Source: Arthrobacter sp. CAU 1506
GTDB lineage: Bacteria > Actinomycetota > Actinomycetes > Actinomycetales > Micrococcaceae
Length of the DNA stretch: 64,000 nucleotides
Direction of reading: 5' to 3'
Assembly: GCF_005047635.1 (NCBI RefSeq)
Contig: NZ_SUKC01000005.1
Coordinates: 62,001 to 126,000, forward strand
Shown here: positions 28,045-62,262 of the stretch, in pieces
How positions within the stretch are numbered: the first letter of the stretch is position 1
Layout of the letters: each line of letters begins with the position of its first letter
Notes under the pieces: model-generated
The model's input: only the letters and a program-made list of their open reading frames with translations
Told to the model about the DNA's origin: nothing
Database searches by the model: none
Program-made: the position numbers and the translations under genes

Positions 28045-29220
28045 TCAGGCCGGAACCACCTCAAGAACGGGCAGGCTGTCCAGGCCGCGGCTGGAGTTGT
28101 TGATCTTCCGCACTCCCTCGCCGACGGTAAACGACTTCACCCGGCGGCGGAGCGCGTCGAGCACCGCGAAGGCCTCAAGCCGGGCCAGGCCCTGTCCTGC
28201 ACACCCATGCACTCCGTACCCGAAGGACAGGTGGTCGATCGGGTTGCGTTCCACGAGGAAGGCGTCCGGATCCTGATAGTGACGGGGGTCCCGGTTTCCA
28301 GCACAGAAGAGGAGGGCCACCTGGGAGCCGGCCGGAATGACCGTGCCGTCAACGTCGACGTCCTTCGTGGTGCCGCGGCCTTGGGCGTGCATCAACGCCT
28401 CATAGCGAAGCGTCTCGTTGAAGGCAGCGGGAATGAGCGAGGCGTCCTGTCGGAGCAGTTCATACTGGTCGGGGTTCGCACCAAAAGCCGCGATGGCGTT
28501 GCCGATCGCCGCGATCGTCGTGTCCAGGCCCGCCGCCACGTACTGGTGCACGATCTTGCCGCAGTTCGCGGCCGGTATCTCGCCGCGGTGGCCGGCGTCG
28601 AAAATGGCCCGGCCCATGCTGCCCTCAACAAGTTCCTCGCGCTGAAGCGTGGTGGCCCAGTGGAACAGTTCCCCGGCCAGCGGGAAGTTCTGCGCGGTGC
28701 GTTCGTTCATCGGTCCAAGCACATTGAACGCCGCAGCCCCCCAATCCAGGATCTTGTTGCGGACGTCGCCCTGCACCCCAATGAGGTCCAGAACCACCTG
28801 AAGCGGCAGTTCGCGGGCAAGGTCGCCGATGGCGTCAAACGAGCCACGCTCCACCACGCCGGCCACCAGATCGTCGGCCTTCTGGTCAATGCTGGCCTTC
28901 AGCTTGCGCAGCGCGCGCGGGGAGAGGTTCTCGGTGAGGGCGCTTCGCAGGGCCTCGTGCTGCGGCGGATCCGTGGCCAGGCTGGTGCCGATCAGGGCGC
29001 CGTTCATGTCCGGATTGAAGGCGACGGCAGTCGACGAGAAGGCTTCCCAGTTGCCGAGGGCTTCGCGGATCTCCTGGTACCGGGTCAACACCCAGACGTC
29101 ATTCTTTTCAAGTCGCACCGCAGCGGCCTGCTCGCGCAGTTCGGTGAATACCGGGTAGGGGTCGAGCAATACTTCGTCGGACCAAAGGTCGATATCGGAC
29201 GTCTGCAACACTGCAACCAT
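28045..29220 (-). CDS. Cytochrome P450 (first copy)
   Basis: The start is the ATG at 29220 (MVAVLQTSDIDLW), preceded by GAGGTG. The 391-residue soluble P450 has the oxygen-activating I-helix VAAGLDTT (about 228-235), the K-helix ETLR (269-272) and the haem loop FGYGVHGC with the thiolate Cys340. The FGYGVHGCxGQ haem loop and AGLDTT helix occur in bacterial P450s such as the CYP199 group that attack aromatic acids and ethers, but substrate assignment is speculative. It needs electrons from a ferredoxin; a suitable one is encoded at 30081. It is clearly paralogous to the P450 at 34602-35783. The HtaA-domain gene lies 188 bp upstream on the same strand. Confidence 0.95.
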   Translation of the reverse strand: MVAVLQTSDIDLWSDEVLLDPYPVFTELREQAAAVRLEKNDVWVLTRYQEIREALGNWEAFSSTAVAFNPDMNGALIGTSLATDPPQHEALRSALTENLSPRALRKLKASIDQKADDLVAGVVERGSFDAIGDLARELPLQVVLDLIGVQGDVRNKILDWGAAAFNVLGPMNERTAQNFPLAGELFHWATTLQREELVEGSMGRAIFDAGHRGEIPAANCGKIVHQYVAAGLDTTIAAIGNAIAAFGANPDQYELLRQDASLIPAAFNETLRYEALMHAQGRGTTKDVDVDGTVIPAGSQVALLFCAGNRDPRHYQDPDAFLVERNPIDHLSFGYGVHGCAGQGLARLEAFAVLDALRRRVKSFTVGEGVRKINNSSRGLDSLPVLEVVPA

Positions 29221-29354
29221 TCCGTGGCACCTCGCATCGTGTAGAGGGCGCAGCAAGCGGCAGGCGCTACTGCGGGCTTCGGGCATTGACCGTGACCCGG
29301 ATCATGTGTCCGGCGCCACTACGGTTATCCAACGACGTCCGCCCGCATAATACA

Positions 29355-29397
29355 AATGAATGTTTTGAATGATGATTATGTGTTTTGTGCATTCATT
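29355..29397. promoter_or_regulatory. AT-rich inverted repeat upstream of the first P450
   Basis: AATGAATG (29355-29362) and CATTCATT (29390-29397) form a perfect 8-bp inverted repeat with 27 bp between. The segment between is strikingly AT-rich for this genome, and on the minus strand TATTAT lies at 29349-29354 as a possible -10 box. It lies between the HtaA-like gene and the P450 gene, 135 to 177 bp upstream of the P450 start. This looks like the P450 promoter with a regulator site. No regulator gene is present in the module. Confidence 0.45.
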
Positions 29398-29408
29398 GGC
29401 GGCACAGC

Positions 29409-29867
29409 CTACGGGATTGCCGGGTAGAGCATGACCGGACTCAGCGCCGTGCCGGCCGGGTACTGGCCACCCAGCAGGAAGGCGCCTTCGCCGGTGAGAA
29501 CTGTGGCGAAGCTCGCTGCGCCCGTCGATGTCTCGGGTTGCCGGGTCAGCCGGGAGATGGCCACGAACCGTTCCTGGTTGCTGCCGCCGCGTTCCCGGAT
29601 CAGCAGAACCGCTCCGGCATCGTCGAAGTCCACGCGTGGGTCCTGAAATTCGACGTCGAGCATGCCCCAGTGTCCGCTCAATCTGACCGAGCCGGCGAAT
29701 TCCATGCTGCCACCAGAGCCGGATGCGGCCTCGCCTTCCCGCAGAGGAAACCAAAAACCTTCCGGACGCCTCTCTGCCGGCTCTTTGACGTCGATCCGGC
29801 CGTCGTCGAGCGACTCGATGTAGGCCGTCAGGCTTGTCTTGATTGGCCAGAGTATTCCTGCGCCCAT
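29409..29867 (-). CDS. Small cytosolic HtaA-domain protein
   Basis: The start is the ATG at 29867 (MGAGILWPIKTSLTAYI), preceded by GGGGG at a proper distance. The 152-residue product is essentially one HtaA domain: W-x-I-K-x-S-L-x-x-Y-I at the start, FWFPL, GGSMEFAGSVRLSGHWGMLDVEFQDPRVDF in the core (positions 52-81). In corynebacterial HtaA, a surface haem-uptake protein, a Tyr in the first motif and a His in the core help bind haem; here Tyr16 and His66 are in equivalent-looking places. Unlike HtaA it has no signal peptide and no membrane anchor. Its place between two P450 genes and a ferredoxin suggests a cytosolic haem-related or ligand-binding role, as inference. Confidence 0.7.
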   Translation of the reverse strand: MGAGILWPIKTSLTAYIESLDDGRIDVKEPAERRPEGFWFPLREGEAASGSGGSMEFAGSVRLSGHWGMLDVEFQDPRVDFDDAGAVLLIRERGGSNQERFVAISRLTRQPETSTGAASFATVLTGEGAFLLGGQYPAGTALSPVMLYPAIP

Positions 29868-29920
29868 GTCTGCCCCCTGCACTGGCCGCACCCGGATCTG
29901 TTCCAGGCACGTGGTGAATG

Positions 29921-29987
29921 TTGACGTTACAAGAACACGTCCGAATATGGTTTCCGCCGCGTCGCTTTACGGTGTGGATTTTCACAC
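29921..29987 (+). promoter_or_regulatory. Promoter/operator candidate for the ferredoxin gene
   Basis: TTGACG (29921-29926) and AATATG (29944-29949), spaced 17 bp, resemble a -35/-10 pair reading toward the ferredoxin. GTGTG (29972-29976) and CACAC (29983-29987) form an inverted repeat around GATTTT just downstream of the predicted start site, where a repressor could bind. The region also lies upstream of the divergent HtaA-like gene. Confidence 0.35.
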
Positions 29988-30080
29988 GACAGTATGTATT
30001 CTGAGCGTAAGCAAGATCACAAACCGGATTAGTGCGGGTTGGGACAATATGGCGGCGGCGCTGCCGTGAGGAAGGTCAAG

Positions 30081-30269
30081 ATGAAGATTGTTGTCGACTG
30101 GCCGCGGTGCGAGGGGCACGGGCTGTGTGAAGAAGCGGCCCCTCAGCTGATGCACCTCGACGACGAGGGGGAACTGGTCGTGGACGTTGAAGACGTAGAT
30201 GCTGCGAACCTCGAAGCAGCGAAGGCTGCCGTCCGCGTCTGCCCCGTGGCAGCCCTCCGGCTCGCATGA
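30081..30269 (+). CDS. P450-type ferredoxin with CxxHxxC cluster motif
   Basis: The start is the ATG at 30081 after GAGGAAGG; upstream codons are not conserved. The 62-residue product is a small single-cluster ferredoxin. Cysteines are Cys10, Cys16 and Cys54 (CEGHGLC and CPVAAL). The second cysteine of a [4Fe-4S] CxxCxxC motif is replaced by His13. This is the variant seen in ferredoxins that serve actinobacterial P450s, which hold a [3Fe-4S] or His-ligated cluster. The acidic middle region (GELVVDVEDVD) suits docking. It almost certainly supplies electrons to one or both flanking P450s. No ferredoxin reductase gene is in the window. Confidence 0.9.
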   Translation: MKIVVDWPRCEGHGLCEEAAPQLMHLDDEGELVVDVEDVDAANLEAAKAAVRVCPVAALRLA

Positions 30270-30384
30270 CGGCGGTGGCCCTGAACTACCGGATCCCGGT
30301 ACCGCGTCTGCGCAAACTGAGTGTCAAGGCTCCTGATCCCGCATCTGCGGCCTAGTCGGGCGTGTCAAAAACAGTGCAATTCGT

Positions 30385-30400
30385 GCAACTAAAGCGTTGC
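30385..30400. promoter_or_regulatory. Operator-like palindrome upstream of the ABC importer operon
   Basis: GCAAC (30385-30389) and GTTGC (30396-30400) are inverted around six bases; with flanking bases the arms extend to GTGCAAC and GTTGCGC with one mismatch. The site is 25 bp upstream of the short leader ORF and about 100 bp upstream of the ATPase gene. GTGCAA occurs once more at 30374-30379. The cognate regulator is not in the window. Confidence 0.4.
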
Positions 30401-30424
30401 GCGACTGCCACACAAGGAGGTGCT

Positions 30425-30502
30425 GTGCAGTACTCGTTTACACAGGTGATCCCCTGCCTTCACGGCCCGGGCCCCGCGCTCTCGGAGCGGATGCCGCGAT
30501 GA
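30425..30502 (+). CDS. Short leader ORF (25 aa) coupled to the ABC ATPase gene
   Basis: AAGGAGG (30414-30420), the best ribosome-binding site in this region, is followed after four bases by a GTG at 30425. The frame runs 25 codons (MQYSFTQVIPCLHGPGPALS...) and its TGA overlaps the ATG of the sugar ABC ATPase as ATGA (30499-30502). No other in-frame start for the ATPase uses that Shine-Dalgarno. This is the layout of a leader peptide translated first, with the transporter gene coupled by termination-reinitiation. It has no recognised homology, so whether the peptide has a function is unknown. Confidence 0.5.
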   Translation: MQYSFTQVIPCLHGPGPALSERMPR

Positions 30503-32031
30503 GCACAACAGCACGACTCGAAGTGCGCGGGTTGTCGAAAACATTCGCGGGAGTGACGGTGCTCGCCGACGCTCAGCTGGTCATCGAGCCGGGCGAAGTG
30601 CACGCGCTCGTCGGACAGAACGGCTCCGGGAAATCGACGCTCATCAAACTCATCAGCGGCGTCTATCGAGCAGATCCGGGTGGCGAAGTCTTCGTCGACG
30701 GACACCGCATCGGCACTCCAATCAACCCCGGCGGCCTGCATGAGCAAGGCCTGGCCTTTGTGCATCAGGACCTTGGCTTAGTGAACGACCTCAGCGTGCG
30801 TGAGAATGTCCGGGTGGGGCGCCATGCGACCCGGCCGTTCACAGGGTGGATCGACAAGGTCCGGGATACCGAGGCGGTACAGCAAGCCTTCGATTTTCTG
30901 GGCGTCCAGATAGATCCGCATGCCAAAGTCGCAACGCTCAAGCCGAGCGAACGCGTCGCCGTCGCCGTTGCACGTGCGCTCCAGGAGCGGACGCCCGGCA
31001 GCGGCGTTGTTGTCTTCGACGAGTCGTCCCGCGCCATTCCACACGAGGCACTTGACGACTTCTACGGCATGATCCGGCTGCTCGCCGACCAAGGCACCGC
31101 CGTGCTGATTGTCAGCCATGACCTCAGGGAAGTCCTGCGGATCGCCGACCGGGTCACGGCGCTGCGTAACGGCAGCGTGGTGGAGATGGGCGTGCCGACG
31201 GCTGAACTGGACGAGGCGGCGCTCACCCGGCTGGTGTTGGGCCACAACGGCGAGCTGGACGATTACGCCAGCTCGATGCCCGCCACCGTAGGCGACGGTG
31301 GTGTTGAGCTGAGAGACCTCAGCGGCGGACGTATTCGCGGGGTGAGCGCTCAGATTAGACGCGGCGAGGTAGTGGGTTTCACGGGCACTGTCGACTCCGG
31401 CCTATCCAGCCTGGCGCCCCTGATCGGTGGTGCCATCCAGGGCCAGGGGCAGGCCGTGGTGGATGGAAGGACGCTCGACCTAGGTTCGTCGTCCCCGTCG
31501 GCTGCCTTGCGCGCAGGGATCGCCTACATCCCGCAGGACCGCCACGGCGAGGGCCTCGCTACCGAGCTCACCGTCGAGGAAAACGTGACGATCCCGCATC
31601 TCAGGATGAAGGGGAGGCCTTGGCGGTCGGGCGGAAGGTGGCAGCGGTCGGAAACCAACGCTGTTCTGGCCGGCTTCGACGTGCGCCCGCATGATCCGCG
31701 CGCCGTGGTTGCCACCCTCAGCGGCGGCAACCAGCAAAAGGTGCTGATGGGCAAGTGGCTGCTGGGCGGACCCAGCCTCCTGGTGCTTGATGACCCGACT
31801 CAGGCGGTAGACGTTGGCGCGCGCGGCTCGGTGTTGCGTGCTACCAGGCAAGCAGCCGTCGATGGCGCCGCCGTCGTCCTGTGCAGCAGTGAACCGGACG
31901 ATCTGGTGTCAGTGTGCGACCGCGTCCTTGTACTGAACGAGGGGGAAGTGGCAGTGGAGTTGGTTCGACCGTTTACAGCTGAAGACATTCTCGCCGCAGT
32001 GTTCGGCGCTACCGATGGAGGACTGGAATGA
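30499..32031 (+). CDS. CUT2-type sugar ABC transporter ATP-binding protein (two NBDs)
   Basis: The start is the ATG at 30499 (MSTTARLEVRG). The 510-residue product has two fused ABC ATPase domains, as in RbsA/MglA/XylG. Domain 1 has Walker A VGQNGSGKSTLI, though its signature and Walker B (LKPSERVAVAVARAL, VVVFDESSRAI) are degenerate. Domain 2 lacks a proper Walker A but has an intact signature LSGGNQQKVLMGKWLL and Walker B LLVLDDPTQAVDVGAR. This split of functions is normal for the family. It powers import through the downstream permease, whose ATG overlaps its stop (32028-32031). The substrate may be a sugar, autoinducer-like molecule or glycoside; the flanking P450s suggest a compound to be oxidised. 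Confidence 0.93.
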   Translation: MSTTARLEVRGLSKTFAGVTVLADAQLVIEPGEVHALVGQNGSGKSTLIKLISGVYRADPGGEVFVDGHRIGTPINPGGLHEQGLAFVHQDLGLVNDLSVRENVRVGRHATRPFTGWIDKVRDTEAVQQAFDFLGVQIDPHAKVATLKPSERVAVAVARALQERTPGSGVVVFDESSRAIPHEALDDFYGMIRLLADQGTAVLIVSHDLREVLRIADRVTALRNGSVVEMGVPTAELDEAALTRLVLGHNGELDDYASSMPATVGDGGVELRDLSGGRIRGVSAQIRRGEVVGFTGTVDSGLSSLAPLIGGAIQGQGQAVVDGRTLDLGSSSPSAALRAGIAYIPQDRHGEGLATELTVEENVTIPHLRMKGRPWRSGGRWQRSETNAVLAGFDVRPHDPRAVVATLSGGNQQKVLMGKWLLGGPSLLVLDDPTQAVDVGARGSVLRATRQAAVDGAAVVLCSSEPDDLVSVCDRVLVLNEGEVAVELVRPFTAEDILAAVFGATDGGLE

Positions 32032-33029
32032 GTGCCACAACAACGACCCCGGTCCAAGCCCGACCGGAACCCGCCCGGCTCCGAAGGTTCTGGGCCATCG
32101 TGCTGCAGCGCTACAGCCTGGTGTTGCTCTGGCTGCTGATGATCATCGTGCTCATCATTGCGGTACCGGGCGACGTCAGCCTCGTGAGTGCGCTGCGTGC
32201 GGTCCTCGGACAGCAAACGCCGCTGATCTTCCTGGGGCTGGCCGTGGTCATCACGATGGCGGTGGGGGAGTTCGACCTATCCTTCGCAGGGATCTTCGGG
32301 ATCGCTGCCGTCACCGTCCCCGCCCTGGTGGTGCTGCACGGCTGGCCGTATCCGCTCGCGGCACTGGCCGCACTCGTGGTTGCCTTGGCCTTCGGGGCGA
32401 TCAACGCCGGACTGATCGTCGGCGTGGGCATCAACTCCGTCGTGGTGACCCTCGGCGTTGCCAGCGTGGCGGGCGGCCTCGCGTTCCTTTTGTCGGGGGA
32501 GACAACGGTCAGCGGGATGGACCCGGCACTGTCGGGGCTGGCGCTGGGCCGCTTCCTCGGCCTCCCCCTGGTGTTCTGGTACGGCCTGGTCCTGGCGGTG
32601 GTGGTCACCTATGTCATGAGCGCGACGCCGCTCGGCCGGCACATGTTGTTCGTTGGCGCGAACCGCTCAGTGGCCCGGCTCGCGGGCGTGTCCGTCTCCC
32701 GGGTCCGCACCGGAGCCTATCTGTCCTCCGCATTGCTCTGTGGCTTCGCGGGCGTGGTCATTTCCACCGGCCTTGGCGGTTTCAATCCGGGCACCGCAAC
32801 GACGATGCTGATGCCCACGTTTGCGGCCGTCTTCTTGGGTACCGTCGCGGTTGTGCCCGGTCGGTTCAACCCCATGGGTACATTGATTGCCGCATACTTC
32901 CTGCTCACCGGGGTATTCGGCCTGCAGTTGCTTCGTCTGACCGGTTGGGTCACCGAAGTCTTCTTCGGCGTCGCCCTCGTCGCGGCCGTCACCATCTCGT
33001 TCCTCCTGCAGCGCAGGGTCCGCGGCTGA
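32028..33029 (+). CDS. CUT2-type sugar ABC transporter permease
   Basis: The product is 333 residues with about nine to ten membrane helices and belongs to the RbsC/MglC/XylH permease family. Recognisable elements are LGLAVVITMAVGEFDLSFAGIFGIAAV, the family site GEFDLS near helix 3, INAGLIVGVGINSVVVTLGVASVAGGLAF, and VGANRSVARLAGVSVSRVRTGAYLSSALLCGFAGV, the ATPase-contacting loop. The ATG overlaps the ATPase stop as ATGA. A strong hairpin 23 bp after the stop ends the operon. The binding-protein gene that completes the importer is convergent, at 33376-34557. Confidence 0.93.
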   Translation: MSATTTTPVQARPEPARLRRFWAIVLQRYSLVLLWLLMIIVLIIAVPGDVSLVSALRAVLGQQTPLIFLGLAVVITMAVGEFDLSFAGIFGIAAVTVPALVVLHGWPYPLAALAALVVALAFGAINAGLIVGVGINSVVVTLGVASVAGGLAFLLSGETTVSGMDPALSGLALGRFLGLPLVFWYGLVLAVVVTYVMSATPLGRHMLFVGANRSVARLAGVSVSRVRTGAYLSSALLCGFAGVVISTGLGGFNPGTATTMLMPTFAAVFLGTVAVVPGRFNPMGTLIAAYFLLTGVFGLQLLRLTGWVTEVFFGVALVAAVTISFLLQRRVRG

Positions 33030-33051
33030 GTCCTGGCGGTAAAGCGAAGAT

Positions 33052-33086
33052 AGCCACGGCCTGCCCGCGAGGGACAGGCCGTGGCT
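33052..33086 (+). terminator. Rho-independent terminator of the ABC importer operon
   Basis: AGCCACGGCCTG (33052-33063) pairs with CAGGCCGTGGCT (33075-33086), and TTTTC follows. CCC/GGG can extend the stem into the loop. The hairpin begins 23 bp after the permease stop codon, reading in the same direction, with the T-run on the correct side. Confidence 0.85.
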
Positions 33087-33180
33087 TTTCGCTGCCCGGC
33101 GGCGCGCGGTCATTCCGCCCAGCCTCGGGCCGGCTGAGGCAGAGCCCCGGTGAGCCGGTGGGGATTCGCAGGTCCCCGGC

Positions 33181-33204
33181 GCGCCGGAGCGCCGGAGCGC
33201 CGGA
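33181..33204. repeat. Tandem 8-bp repeat, three copies
   Basis: GCGCCGGA occurs three times head to tail from 33181 to 33204 and a partial further copy precedes it. It is in the convergent intergenic region and codes for nothing recognisable. It is a short tandem array that may vary in copy number. Confidence 0.8.
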
Positions 33205-33279
33205 GCTCGGGGTATGCGGGCAGCCCGGTGGGCCACTGCATCGGCGGCGGCGCAACTAATCGACGGCGGCGCAACGAAA

Positions 33280-33321
33280 GGGGGGTGTCCTGCAGCTTGT
33301 CGTGGCTGCAGGACACCCCCC
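33280..33321. terminator. Strong 16-bp hairpin downstream of the binding-protein gene
   Basis: GGGGGGTGTCCTGCAG (33280-33295) pairs perfectly with CTGCAGGACACCCCCC (33306-33321) across a 10-base loop, and CGAA/TTCG can extend the base. It sits 54 bp beyond the stop codon of the minus-strand substrate-binding protein and most likely terminates that transcript; it could also stop read-through from the other side. Confidence 0.75.
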
Positions 33322-33375
33322 CTTCGTCCGGGTTGTCTCAGTGAGAACTGCGACGGCGACCGCTCGTCGGGTTGG

Positions 33376-34557
33376 TCAGTCCAGTCCCCAAAGCTTAGTG
33401 AAGCCCTCGCGGAATGAAGCGTCGCCGTACCATTCGCCGGAGGCTTCAGCTTCCGGAGTCAGCGTCAGCGCCTGGGTGGCTTCCTGACTGAACAGCATGC
33501 GGTAGGGGAACTTCAGGTTCTGCACGCTGGGCTGCCCGCTCATCATCCGCAGCGTTTGGTCCGCGGAATACCATCCCAGCGCCTGCAGGTTGGTGCCGAC
33601 TTCAGCGTTCATGAAGCGACCGTCCGCCAGCAGCTGCATGACCGCGAGCGAACCTTCCATGCTGATCACCTTGACGTCGTCCGGGCTGATGCCCGCCGAC
33701 TGCAGACCCTGCTGGATCGGCTGCACCAGGCTGTCGGCCAGGGCGTGGATATGGGTGATGCCGGGGTTGGCCACCAGAGCGCTGCTGATCTGGCTGGGCA
33801 GTTTGTCCATCTGCCCGGTGTTGATCTCCTGGAAGGTCACCTTGCAGTCAGCACACTTCTCCTTGTAGGTCGCGAGTGCGCCCTGCTCCATCCACAGCTT
33901 GGTCGCCGGGGTGTCCGACAGGCCGACGGCCAGGACATCTGCCTTGGCGTTGGAGTCGGCGATGACCCAGTTGGCCATCCAAGCTTGCATTTCGACATTG
34001 TCCGGCGACAGGTAGCCCACCTGCTTCGGGTCACCCGGTCCGGCCGGAGCAACCTGGGTGTACAGCAGCGGGATGCCTGCCTTGGTGACCGAGTCAAACG
34101 CGACGCTGGCGAGTTCATAGGGAACGGATCCGGAAATCACGGCACCGGCGTCGGCCTGAACGGCCTGGTCGATGCAGGTGGCGATCGACTGGGGATTGGC
34201 CTTGCCATCGCACACCTGGAGGGACACCCCGGCTTCCCCGAGTGCCTCCTCCAGTGCGTCGGCGATGACGGTGAACATCGGCACAGATAGCGTCGCGGCG
34301 ACGTAGTAGACGGTTGATCCGGACAAGTCGGCGACGCCTTCGAGGGCAGGTCCGGGAGCCGTGAACTCCCCAACCGGCTGCGAAATGGTCTCGACGATCT
34401 CCTGGGCTGCCTGTGCTGCCGGTGACAGTTCCTGCGCCGGTTCTGATGCGGCAGGTGCCGCATCAGAACCGGCGCCGCATGCTGCGAGCGAGACCGCGGC
34501 CGTTGCCACGACCAGGCCCCGCAGCACGTTGGTGATTCGTTTCTTCATGTTGTTCAT
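33376..34557 (-). CDS. Sugar ABC transporter substrate-binding lipoprotein
   Basis: The start is ATG 34557 (MNNMKKRITNVLRG); the ATG three codons later is also possible. The 393-residue product has a lipoprotein signal peptide ending at LAAC (Cys27). It then has a periplasmic-binding type 1 domain of the ribose/galactose group: TVYYVAATLSVPMFTVIADALEEAL, ATCIDQAVQADAGAVISGSVPYEL, GISPDDVKVISMEGSLAVMQLLADG and VGTNLQALGWYSADQTLRMMSG. It binds the import substrate outside the cell for the CUT2 ATPase and permease encoded on the opposite strand. It lies 44 bp after the second P450 gene on the same strand, so oxidation and uptake genes appear to share a transcript. Confidence 0.9.
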   Translation of the reverse strand: MNNMKKRITNVLRGLVVATAAVSLAACGAGSDAAPAASEPAQELSPAAQAAQEIVETISQPVGEFTAPGPALEGVADLSGSTVYYVAATLSVPMFTVIADALEEALGEAGVSLQVCDGKANPQSIATCIDQAVQADAGAVISGSVPYELASVAFDSVTKAGIPLLYTQVAPAGPGDPKQVGYLSPDNVEMQAWMANWVIADSNAKADVLAVGLSDTPATKLWMEQGALATYKEKCADCKVTFQEINTGQMDKLPSQISSALVANPGITHIHALADSLVQPIQQGLQSAGISPDDVKVISMEGSLAVMQLLADGRFMNAEVGTNLQALGWYSADQTLRMMSGQPSVQNLKFPYRMLFSQEATQALTLTPEAEASGEWYGDASFREGFTKLWGLD

Positions 34558-34601
34558 TCCCTCTTTTCTTTTCTCCCCGAGGGGATGGCTGGTTGGCGCC
34601 C

Positions 34602-35783
34602 TCATGAGATGGGGTGCGCCTGAAGCGGCAGATGAGCGAGGCCGTTGATCAGCGGGTGTTCGCGCTGCTCGGGAGTGCCGGTGAGTTCGAAGCTGTCGAC
34701 GCGCCGCAGCAGCGACGCGATCACGCTGTGCGCTTCCAATCGCGCCACGGCCTGGCCGACGCAGCCGTGCACGCCATAGCCGAAGGACAGGTGGTCGACA
34801 GGGTTGCGCGATATGTCGAAGACGTCGGGATCGGCATAATGCCGCTCATCCCGGTTGGCACTTTGGAAGTGGAGGAACACACGCGAGCCCGCCGGGATGG
34901 CTGCATCGCCAACCTGCACGTCGCGCGTGGTGAGCCTGAAGAACCCCCGCACGGGCGGCCACATCCGCAAGGTCTCCTCGAACAGGGGAGAAGTCAAGGA
35001 TGGATCCGCTTTCAGAGCCTCCCAGAGGTGCGCCTGTTCGGCCATGACCCGGAGCAGCGCGCCCAGGGCGTTCGCGGTAGTGTCCAAGCCGGCAACCAGC
35101 AGGGCATTCATTTGAAGTTGCGCACTGTGCTCGGTCAGGACACCGGCGTCGACGGCATCCAGGACTGCCGCACCCCAACTGCCCGGCCGAAGACTGGAGC
35201 GGTTTGAGACGGAGGCGATCCAGTCAAGGAACGAGATGACGGTTGGCATGTCGGCTTCCAAGCGGGCGTCTGCCGGGCCGAAAGTGCGGTTGACCGCGTC
35301 CGAGCCGACGAACAAATGATCTCGCGGTTCATCCGGGATCCCGATCAAATCGCCAACAATGCGGGCGGGAATGACCCGGGCCAAATCCACCACACCGTCG
35401 AAGGTGCCCCGACCAACCACTTCTGCGGTGATGGCATCTACTTCGCTGGCGATCCGTTCACGCAGCTTGGCAATGGCGCGCGGGGACGTCTGTGAAGCGA
35501 GTACCCCGCGGATCATGTCATGCTCGGGCGGGTCCGTGGCGATGATGGCGCCGCGGATGGCGTCGTTGGCCGAATCCAGCAACGCAACGCCCTCCGCGGA
35601 CGAATAGGTCTCCCAATCGATGGCAGCCGCCCGCACCTCTTCGTATCGCGTGAGCACCCAGAAGTTGTGCTCTTTGACGTACACCGCAGGGCCCGCTTCC
35701 CGCAGGTCCCGCAAGAGCGACGGATCGTCAGATGCGTCGAAAATGTTGACGCTTGCTGGTGGTGCTCCGGATGCGGCTGGCAT
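34602..35783 (-). CDS. Cytochrome P450 (second copy)
   Basis: The start is the ATG at 35783 (MPAASGAPPASVNIF), after a good AGGAGG. The 393-residue product has I-helix VAGLDTT (230-236), K-helix ETLR (270-273) and haem loop FGYGVHGC with Cys341. It aligns by eye along its length with the first copy: both share TDPPxH, SPRA, a DLAR-IP/LP segment, LIG, and NPxDHLSFGYGVHGCxGQ. They are therefore paralogues within the same module and may act on successive or related substrates. The substrate-binding-protein gene follows 44 bp downstream. A perfect palindrome at 35961-35974 lies upstream. Confidence 0.95.
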   Translation of the reverse strand: MPAASGAPPASVNIFDASDDPSLLRDLREAGPAVYVKEHNFWVLTRYEEVRAAAIDWETYSSAEGVALLDSANDAIRGAIIATDPPEHDMIRGVLASQTSPRAIAKLRERIASEVDAITAEVVGRGTFDGVVDLARVIPARIVGDLIGIPDEPRDHLFVGSDAVNRTFGPADARLEADMPTVISFLDWIASVSNRSSLRPGSWGAAVLDAVDAGVLTEHSAQLQMNALLVAGLDTTANALGALLRVMAEQAHLWEALKADPSLTSPLFEETLRMWPPVRGFFRLTTRDVQVGDAAIPAGSRVFLHFQSANRDERHYADPDVFDISRNPVDHLSFGYGVHGCVGQAVARLEAHSVIASLLRRVDSFELTGTPEQREHPLINGLAHLPLQAHPIS

Positions 35784-61356: not shown

Positions 61357-62262
61357 ATGGATTCACTCGCCGCAGTCCCCGGAACCGGGCCCGCAACCTC
61401 GCCCCTGCCCGTGCTGCGCAAGGCACGCGCACCGAAGAAGTTTGCGGACCTGCCCACCGACCGGGCCGTCGTCATGGCCATATTGAACGTCACGCCGGAC
61501 TCCTTCAGCGACGGCGGGGAACACGCCAACCGCGAAGCGGCGATCGCCTACGGCCTGAAGCTGCTCTACGGCGGCGCCGACATCATCGACGTGGGCGGGG
61601 AATCCACCCGCCCGAACGCCGACTCCATCACGCCGGAAGAAGAGCAGCAGCGCATTTTGCCGGTGATCGAGGCGTTGGCCAAGGCCGGCGCCCTGATCAG
61701 CGTGGACACCATGCACGTGGACACCGCAGCGAAGGCCCTTGATGCCGGGGCAGCCATCATCAACGACGTGTCCGGCATGACCTTCGACCCGGAGATGCCG
61801 GCGCTGGTGGCGGAGCGGAAGGTTCCCTACATCCTGATGCACCGGCGCGGCGACGCCCGCCATGCGGATCCGAAGGCGGATTACCAGGACGTGGTGGCCG
61901 AAGTCCTCGCGGAACTGACGGAACTGCGCGACAAGTTCGTTGCCGCCGGGGTTGCGCCGGAGCAGATCATTCTGGATCCGGGCCTGGGCTTCTCCAAGAA
62001 TGCCGAACACAACTGGGAACTGCTGCGCGCCACCGGGCAGTTCGCCCAGCTGGGACACAAGCTGCTGATCGGTGCGTCCCGCAAGCGGTTCCTCGGCTCG
62101 TTGCTGACGTCCGCCGGCAAGGCCGCCGCGCCCAAGGAACGCGACGAGGCCACACTTGCGGTCTCCGCACTGGCCGCGGCCAACGGCGCGTGGGGCGTGC
62201 GAGTGCACGACGCCGGTGCCTCCCTGGACGCGGTCAAGGTCGCCGCTGCCTGGGCCAAGTAG
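61357..62262 (+). CDS. folP: Dihydropteroate synthase
   Basis: The product is 301 residues, a TIM-barrel enzyme. Pterin and sulphonamide site motifs are visible: VMAILNVTPDSFSDGGEHAN, ADIIDVGGESTRPNAD, LISVDTMHVDTAAKALDAGAAIINDVSGM, ILMHRRGD, IILDPGLGFSKNAEHNWELL and LLIGASRKRFLG. It joins 4-aminobenzoate to dihydropterin pyrophosphate and is the target of sulphonamides. The N-terminal 35 residues are an extension beyond the core; an internal start is possible. It is 26 bp after folE and 8 bp before folB. Confidence 0.96.
   Translation: MDSLAAVPGTGPATSPLPVLRKARAPKKFADLPTDRAVVMAILNVTPDSFSDGGEHANREAAIAYGLKLLYGGADIIDVGGESTRPNADSITPEEEQQRILPVIEALAKAGALISVDTMHVDTAAKALDAGAAIINDVSGMTFDPEMPALVAERKVPYILMHRRGDARHADPKADYQDVVAEVLAELTELRDKFVAAGVAPEQIILDPGLGFSKNAEHNWELLRATGQFAQLGHKLLIGASRKRFLGSLLTSAGKAAAPKERDEATLAVSALAAANGAWGVRVHDAGASLDAVKVAAAWAK

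Follow-up and report, generated by a model that had tools for sequence, protein, structure and literature searches.

A small HtaA-domain protein paired with cytochrome P450 genes in a putative, horizontally assembled catabolic island of Arthrobacter sp. CAU 1506

The HtaA and ChtA hemophores of Corynebacterium are secreted or surface proteins whose CR domains capture heme outside the cell; according to the accessible portions of PMC12494546, the axial ligand in these domains is a tyrosine (Tyr49/Tyr361/Tyr129), aided by a helper histidine that is a tyrosine in ChtA, a serine (Ser45/Ser357) together with a second tyrosine (Tyr197/Tyr490) holds a propionate, and the axial tyrosine, propionate tyrosine and helper histidine are the heme-pocket residues of C. 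diphtheriae HtaA. The PbdAB and CYP199A O-demethylases of Rhodococcus jostii RHA1 and Rhodopseudomonas are cytochrome P450 (P450) systems, and in PbdA (structure 9g9q) Arg84, Ser87 and Ser237 hold the benzoate carboxylate, as described in the available text of PMC11530827. CUT2 importers of the RbsABC and AraGH type comprise an ATPase with two nucleotide-binding domains, one BPD_transp_2 permease and a Peripla_BP_4 lipoprotein. In this work, we analyzed a window of 64,000 nucleotides (the whole stretch of DNA under study, positions 62,001 to 126,000 of contig NZ_SUKC01000005.1) from Arthrobacter sp. CAU 1506, in which seven contiguous genes encode relatives of all three: a single-domain HtaA-type protein, two CYP199-like P450s (P450A and P450B) with a ferredoxin, and a complete CUT2 importer. 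The interest of the locus resides in the pairing of its HtaA protein, to which the original prediction had assigned no role and which proved the most informative part, with a P450.

Using the window's own, P450-linked HtaA as query, we searched 394 genomes of the class and 395 of the family among open frames of up to approximately 300 residues and some longer ones, counting one best HtaA per stretch; G040:C3:64202 is absent for this reason, a better match with a long frame lying in the same stretch. This yielded 95 HtaA loci in total, including two plasmid loci and the window itself, with relatives within any one genus not being independent. Eleven loci with long frames or several domains, four of which (L194, L202, L204 and L206) displayed clear membrane stretches, were set aside, leaving 84 small HtaA loci (L196, whose open frame spans 529 residues and whose gene call spans 168, was kept among the latter). 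A P450 was present in the fetched stretch of 48 of the 84 small loci versus none of the 11 long ones. P450s were detected with a hidden Markov model (HMM) built from the P450s in the same stretches, and expectations were derived from whole-genome P450 counts. In a first baseline some P450-rich genomes entered with their larger candidate count, and in a repeat all genomes did; L082 and L083 had no genome baseline, and these comparisons accordingly comprise 82 small loci. Within 500 bases and on the same strand, a P450 accompanied 22 of them, against 0.21 expected (0.27 with the larger counts); the corresponding values were 25 against 0.32 (0.41) within 1,200 bases on the same strand, and 41 against 1.79 (2.34) within 5 kb on either strand. 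Even when all 11 long HtaA proteins are counted as small, close pairing amounts to 22/95. After clustering at 45% identity, a close pair was observed in 10 of 28 HtaA clusters and a P450 in the stretch in 23 of 28. The P450s within 1.2 kb of HtaA belong to seven families at a 40% identity cut (one frame-broken copy left out), one of which consists of P450-reductase-flavodoxin fusions, and tracing the label "P450 within 1.2 kb" over the HtaA tree takes 8 changes, of which well-supported branches force 4 or more. Taken together, the HtaA-P450 gene pairing is well supported, and among the best-ranked matches in the open-access literature we found no work that connects HtaA-domain proteins to genomic P450 genes; two papers that mention both deal with different subjects.

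The pairing extends to plasmids, where an Ipu-type P450 cluster is present in all six records that HtaA matched (E up to 1e-5), in one of them across the start of the record; another four plasmid records, whose P450 is related (60-69% identity), did not appear among the HtaA matches. The Ipu isopropylamine cluster of Paenarthrobacter aurescens TC1, on plasmid pTC2, combines a P450 annotated as ipuC, a ferredoxin and a reductase with a small HtaA, and it differs from the window in P450 family and chemistry. The P450s of both TC1 Ipu clusters appear in a proteome study, as far as its available text goes (PMC6776027). As a separate observation, the small protein of the pTC2 cluster is annotated as a conserved hypothetical (AAur_pTC20205; CP000476, L256:8965-9462) and is an HtaA-domain protein. 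Also observed were HtaA-adjoining P450 genes of about 1,000-1,250 residues as called (L137, L192, L193, L203, L136, L173, L181, L187, L189, L190 and L094); a domain scan of L137 and L192 gave the order P450, Pyr_redox_2, flavodoxin. We know of no self-sufficient P450 class with this order, and a literature search returned no title on it among its best-ranked matches.

The window HtaA (29409..29867, minus strand, 152 residues) matches the HtaA profile (PF04213) with 65.6 bits, versus a curated cut-off of 24 (E 1.1e-17), and its best solved match is 8smu, the HtaA-CR2 structure (E 9.7e-8). By alignment, its heme-pocket residues are Ser12, Tyr16, Gly65-His66 and Tyr136; thus, it shares with the hemophores the Pfam family and the serine, axial tyrosine, helper histidine after a glycine, and propionate tyrosine. 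Of these, Tyr16, His66 and Tyr136 match Tyr361, the helper histidine after Gly411 (which we take to be position 412) and Tyr490 of HtaA-CR2. Among 17 aligned small HtaA proteins, W7, Y16, F40, G59, H66, G68, L88 and Y136 are invariant. Across the small set, the axial and propionate tyrosines are found in 84/84 proteins, the helper histidine in 82/84, with a tyrosine in the other two, and the propionate-position serine in 69/84; the two exceptions at the helper position, L183 and L186, display the tyrosine as ChtA does. On these grounds, the window protein is predicted to bind heme. Unlike the hemophores, which are secreted or surface-exposed and capture extracellular heme (PMC12494546, in its accessible portions), it consists of a single domain, lies beside a P450 gene, and has no N- or C-terminal 17-residue stretch with a hydrophobicity above 1.6, as judged by the Kyte-Doolittle scale alone; a hydrophobic N-terminal stretch occurs in 2 of its 84 small relatives. 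A heme carrier for P450s agrees with the conservation of the pocket residues, with an N terminus that does not resemble an export signal and with the large number of partner families, and we read the window HtaA as a putative cytosolic protein of this kind.

Regarding the locus as a whole, the seven genes are present and carry the names originally given to them: Pfam families match, and the CxxHxxC motif of the ferredoxin was read directly. They are organized in three runs. The first, on the minus strand, contains P450A (28045..29220, 391 residues, heme motif FGYGVHGCAG) and HtaA; the second, on the plus strand, contains the small P450-type ferredoxin (30081..30269, from the open reading frame list, CEGHGLC...CP, 62 residues), the CUT2-type ATPase (30499..32031, with two ABC_tran stretches corresponding to its two nucleotide-binding domains) and the permease (32028..33029, BPD_transp_2, E 6.9e-25); the third, again on the minus strand, contains the binding lipoprotein (33376..34557, Peripla_BP_4) and P450B (34602..35783). 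The HtaA and ferredoxin genes diverge across a spacer of 213 bases (29868..30080), an order also found in three same-genus loci (L127, L128 and L129) and three Georgenia loci (L209, L210 and L213); the ATPase and permease genes overlap by 4 bases, and P450B lies 44 bases upstream of the binding-protein gene. Because the permease and binding-protein genes converge across 346 bases, the importer is split over two runs; of the compact module proposed in the original prediction, the contiguity without any unrelated gene in between stands, but with three runs instead of one. Both P450s (Pfam p450 E values of 5.7e-24 and 4.9e-25 for P450A and P450B, respectively) contain the heme-cysteine motif, the I-helix AGLDTT and the ExxR motif, and the N terminus of the binding protein displays a lipobox-like LAAC stretch; gene calling sets the starts of P450A at 29220 and of the binding protein at 34557. 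Neither a ferredoxin reductase nor a regulator was found inside the seven-gene locus, and neither tRNAs (ARAGORN) nor Rfam matches at gathering scores were found in the window. The genome comprises 4.24 Mb, with about ten P450s and one HtaA match. The genes flanking the locus, a SulP gene and a xanthine/uracil-type permease gene (named by Pfam and by eye), are about 9 kb apart here; among nine genus relatives, they lie ~100 to 460 kb apart on one contig in five and on different contigs in three, with SulP not found in the remaining one. This difference in distance suggests an island at a rearrangement junction.

Both P450s are closest to CYP199 among solved P450s, with 9g9q (PbdA) as the best match of P450A (E 1.4e-72) and likewise of P450B, and they share 41% identity with each other. 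In contrast to PbdAB and CYP199A, the ferredoxin here lies beside P450A, and the carboxylate-binding residues are replaced: at the places of Arg84, Ser87 and Ser237, P450A has Ala75, Gly78 and Gln226 in the printed alignment, and P450B has a glycine and an alanine at the two serines and, in the first position, an arginine whose alignment spans a gap. Since this triad is mostly replaced, the window pair probably binds no benzoate in the PbdA manner, and O-demethylation, a reaction type initially suggested, was dropped in its CYP199A benzoate form. The P450s adjoining two importers of the class search (L044 and L048) keep WRPPS. P450s of a papaverine pathway (CYP1232) were also considered and dropped; this name was not found among the literature matches listed. 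The best identity of P450B in the tree set is 40%, and no close relative of it was found on plasmids, where all 1,346 records fell below 60% and the best 12 of the 1,346 displayed 36-40%, whole genomes not having been searched.

A scan of one species-genome collection yielded 34 loci, of which the 26 whose P450A match reaches 300 bits were counted as named P450A-family loci, some of their stretches being interrupted by contig ends. These contain a ferredoxin in 23/26, an FAD reductase in 21/26, a LysR regulator in 18/26, HtaA in 5/26 (three Georgenia, A. mangrovi and Tersicoccus solisilvae) and a CUT2 importer in 2/26. The same-genus relatives G151, G122 (Arthrobacter mangrovi) and G062 display a P450-LysR-HtaA run divergent from ferredoxin and FAD reductase genes; the window locus lacks reductase and LysR, and the importer occupies the usual place of the reductase. 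In a few loci, the match to the P450A-family gene is divided into two or three segments, and the gene may be broken or misread: L130/L232 (Tersicoccus sp. Bi-70), L234 (Kocuria atrinae) and L235 (Pseudonocardia sp. CNS-004). Phylogenetically, the sister group of window P450A consists of copies from Candidatus Leucobacter sulfamidivorax and a Microbacteriaceae metagenome-assembled genome (96/96), with the same-genus copies constituting another clade. Identity to the genus copies is 70-71% for window P450A and 41-45% for window HtaA, versus 87-95% and 64-86%, respectively, among those copies themselves. This grouping of P450A with Leucobacter and Microbacteriaceae rather than with its own genus makes the locus look horizontally assembled. 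Viewed as an import-and-oxidation module, it is a mosaic whose functional logic is partial.

C42, another contig of this genome, harbors a related run at the end of L249 and in L246:1-10004. Pfam identifies in it an FAD monooxygenase, an alpha/beta hydrolase, a CocE-type hydrolase, a LysR regulator and a PTE-family hydrolase, and likeness to the G151 copies gives the names of a second PTE and an MBL hydrolase; a ferredoxin (77% identical to that of the window) and an FAD reductase, a 77% match to the usual P450A-type reductase, follow. The LysR and reductase of C42 resemble the genus copies no less closely than do those of G151. The P450, HtaA and MFS transporter of the G151 run are missing at the corresponding places of C42, and another MFS-like gene is found beyond the reductase. 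Similar runs with P450A relatives occur on plasmid p2 of Caballeronia insecticola, in Blastococcus tunisiensis and in Leucobacter. That P450A moved from the C42 cluster was rejected, as the tree places it with Leucobacter.

All parts of the CUT2 importer are present by Pfam, and it differs from the RbsABC and AraGH type in that its binding protein is encoded on the opposite strand and its relatives adjoin ring-cleavage-type genes. Searches with the binding protein gave matches in 11/345 family genomes (E 1e-20) and 16/394 class genomes (E 1e-35), the window's genome counted in both and the other matches displaying 25-38% identity. Two operons of Candidatus Leucobacter sulfamidivorax hold the closest orthologs observed, with identities of 71% and 65% for the ATPase, 67% and 62% for the permease, and 45% and 41% for the binding protein. 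One of these operons adjoins LysR, FAD monooxygenase and VOC-type genes and the other a nitrilase and a flavin monooxygenase-like gene (names by eye), and no P450 was found by BLAST or HMM in either stretch (~19.5 kb). Among the neighbors of the importer clade (n=125 genes), the commonest listed families are Glyoxalase/dioxygenase (12), FAA_hydrolase (10), Amidohydro_2 (9) and LysR (8), with Aldedh, Ldh_2 and TPP enzyme also frequent (6 each). This count covers 125 of 152 listed genes and 13 of 15 importer loci, with L040 and L043 dropped as near-duplicates along with six single genes; it refers to the best 25 of 65 families, with importer loci L035, L037 and the distant L049-L051 outside the list. 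Among the best 25 of 187 ATPase models, no curated sugar model reached its cut-off, all being far below it. Sugar or glycoside import, first suggested by way of example, was therefore dropped as not favored, and the ring-cleavage type of the commonest neighboring families does not favor such a substrate. In a Rhodococcus study on the degradation of phthalate esters, the membrane-protein genes that were knocked out included one for a CUT2-type binding protein, according to the accessible part of PMC13188901.

We propose that the locus is a two-part, horizontally assembled catabolic island in which a cytosolic HtaA exchanges heme with a P450, a reading to which we give an even chance. The first part, constituted by P450A, HtaA and the ferredoxin, would represent an actinobacterial P450 unit in a form that lacks the usual reductase. 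The electrons could come from the C42 FAD reductase, which is itself accompanied by a ferredoxin. The second part, constituted by P450B and a CUT2 importer belonging to a clade of aromatic-type catabolic clusters, may import a small, probably ring-containing molecule for oxidation. The HtaA protein would bind heme via Tyr16, aided by His66, and either load a new apo-P450 or take heme from a damaged one. We infer the direction of heme transfer, the substrate and the coupling of import to oxidation. A broader proposal, that in Actinobacteria a cytosolic HtaA-domain family sharing its origin with the secreted hemophores acts as dedicated P450 heme-delivery chaperones, paired in operons with many unrelated P450 families and moving with the P450 units, is put forward tentatively, at slightly less than even probability.

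Several observations weigh against a heme-exchange role coupled to P450s. Two large HtaA clusters, of 17 and 14 members, have P450s in 0 and 2 of their stretches, which implies that the protein must also act without P450s; HtaA is absent from the stretch in 21 of the 26 P450A-family loci and none is annotated in the second Ipu cluster on pTC1, and it is thus not required. The propionate-position serine is missing in 10 of the 11 HtaA partners of the fusion P450s. On the importer side of the island, a P450 is present in 5 of 21 importer stretches and some genomes hold dozens of P450 candidates (98 in G541), so that significance of the importer-P450 linkage on its own was rejected. Finally, at L164:7927-8487 an HtaA lies in a P450-free cluster that, judged by eye, appears catabolic and to include an MFS transporter, a hydrolase and two dioxygenases of the extradiol type, and shared-cluster linkage is thus a partial alternative. 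If HtaA were a passenger of catabolic islands that binds their substrate or another hydrophobic ligand, its linkage to P450s would follow from such islands often holding P450s; the L164 cluster and the two clusters poor in P450 neighbors agree with this, yet the retention of the heme-coordinating tyrosine in every small HtaA and of the helper histidine in nearly all, as well as close pairing across seven P450 families, make it improbable. The vesicle-borne HtaA of Dietzia took heme from a P450, catalase and lignin peroxidase in vitro, according to the available text of PMC8027190, which indicates that heme exchange with a P450 is chemically possible. The same result favors a heme scavenger or buffer, which would soak up heme from inactivated P450s, limit damage and recycle iron with no role in loading, and the optional presence of HtaA beside P450s is as expected of a protective factor. 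Nevertheless, same-strand pairing within 500 bases is tighter than a general buffer needs, and a genome with about ten P450s contains a single HtaA match; we regard this explanation as unlikely.

Other alternatives concern the unity of the locus. The original prediction held that the genes form one co-inherited module importing and oxidizing a single molecule, in which HtaA would be minor, and that separation of P450s and importer in relatives would speak against it. Such separation was largely found: 24 of the 26 named P450A-family stretches, as fetched, lack such an importer, the stretches of the two closest importer orthologs observed lack a P450, and the importer genes of the window lie in two opposed runs. 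The contiguity of the seven genes remains in favor of a single module, as does the presence of a complete CUT2 importer after the P450A run in the two importer-bearing loci, although it is a different one (ATPase 35% and 45% identical to that of the window in Candidatus Leucobacter sulfamidivorax and Blastococcus tunisiensis, respectively). Import followed by P450 oxidation is therefore plausible, but not as a conserved unit, and we consider the single module rather unlikely. It is also possible, though doubtful, that the P450A part stands in for the P450 that the C42 pathway cluster lacks and acts in trans with this cluster, with the importer and P450B serving something else. C42 holds hydrolases, an FAD monooxygenase, LysR, ferredoxin and reductase with no P450, where G151 has both P450 and HtaA, and with the G151 P450 as query window P450A is the sole close match in the genome (72%), the next being P450B at 40%. 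However, its grouping with the Leucobacter copies, apart from the same-genus lineage, makes P450A a xenolog, whose substrate may be a new one.

How bacterial P450s acquire their heme is, to our knowledge, an open question. Should the proposed island reading, with HtaA loading or salvaging P450 heme, prove true, a domain known, from the accessible hemophore literature, for extracellular heme capture would be recast as an intracellular heme carrier, and the small HtaA proteins would constitute a testable factor of P450 maturation or repair, possibly a helper for obtaining active P450s in industrial hosts.

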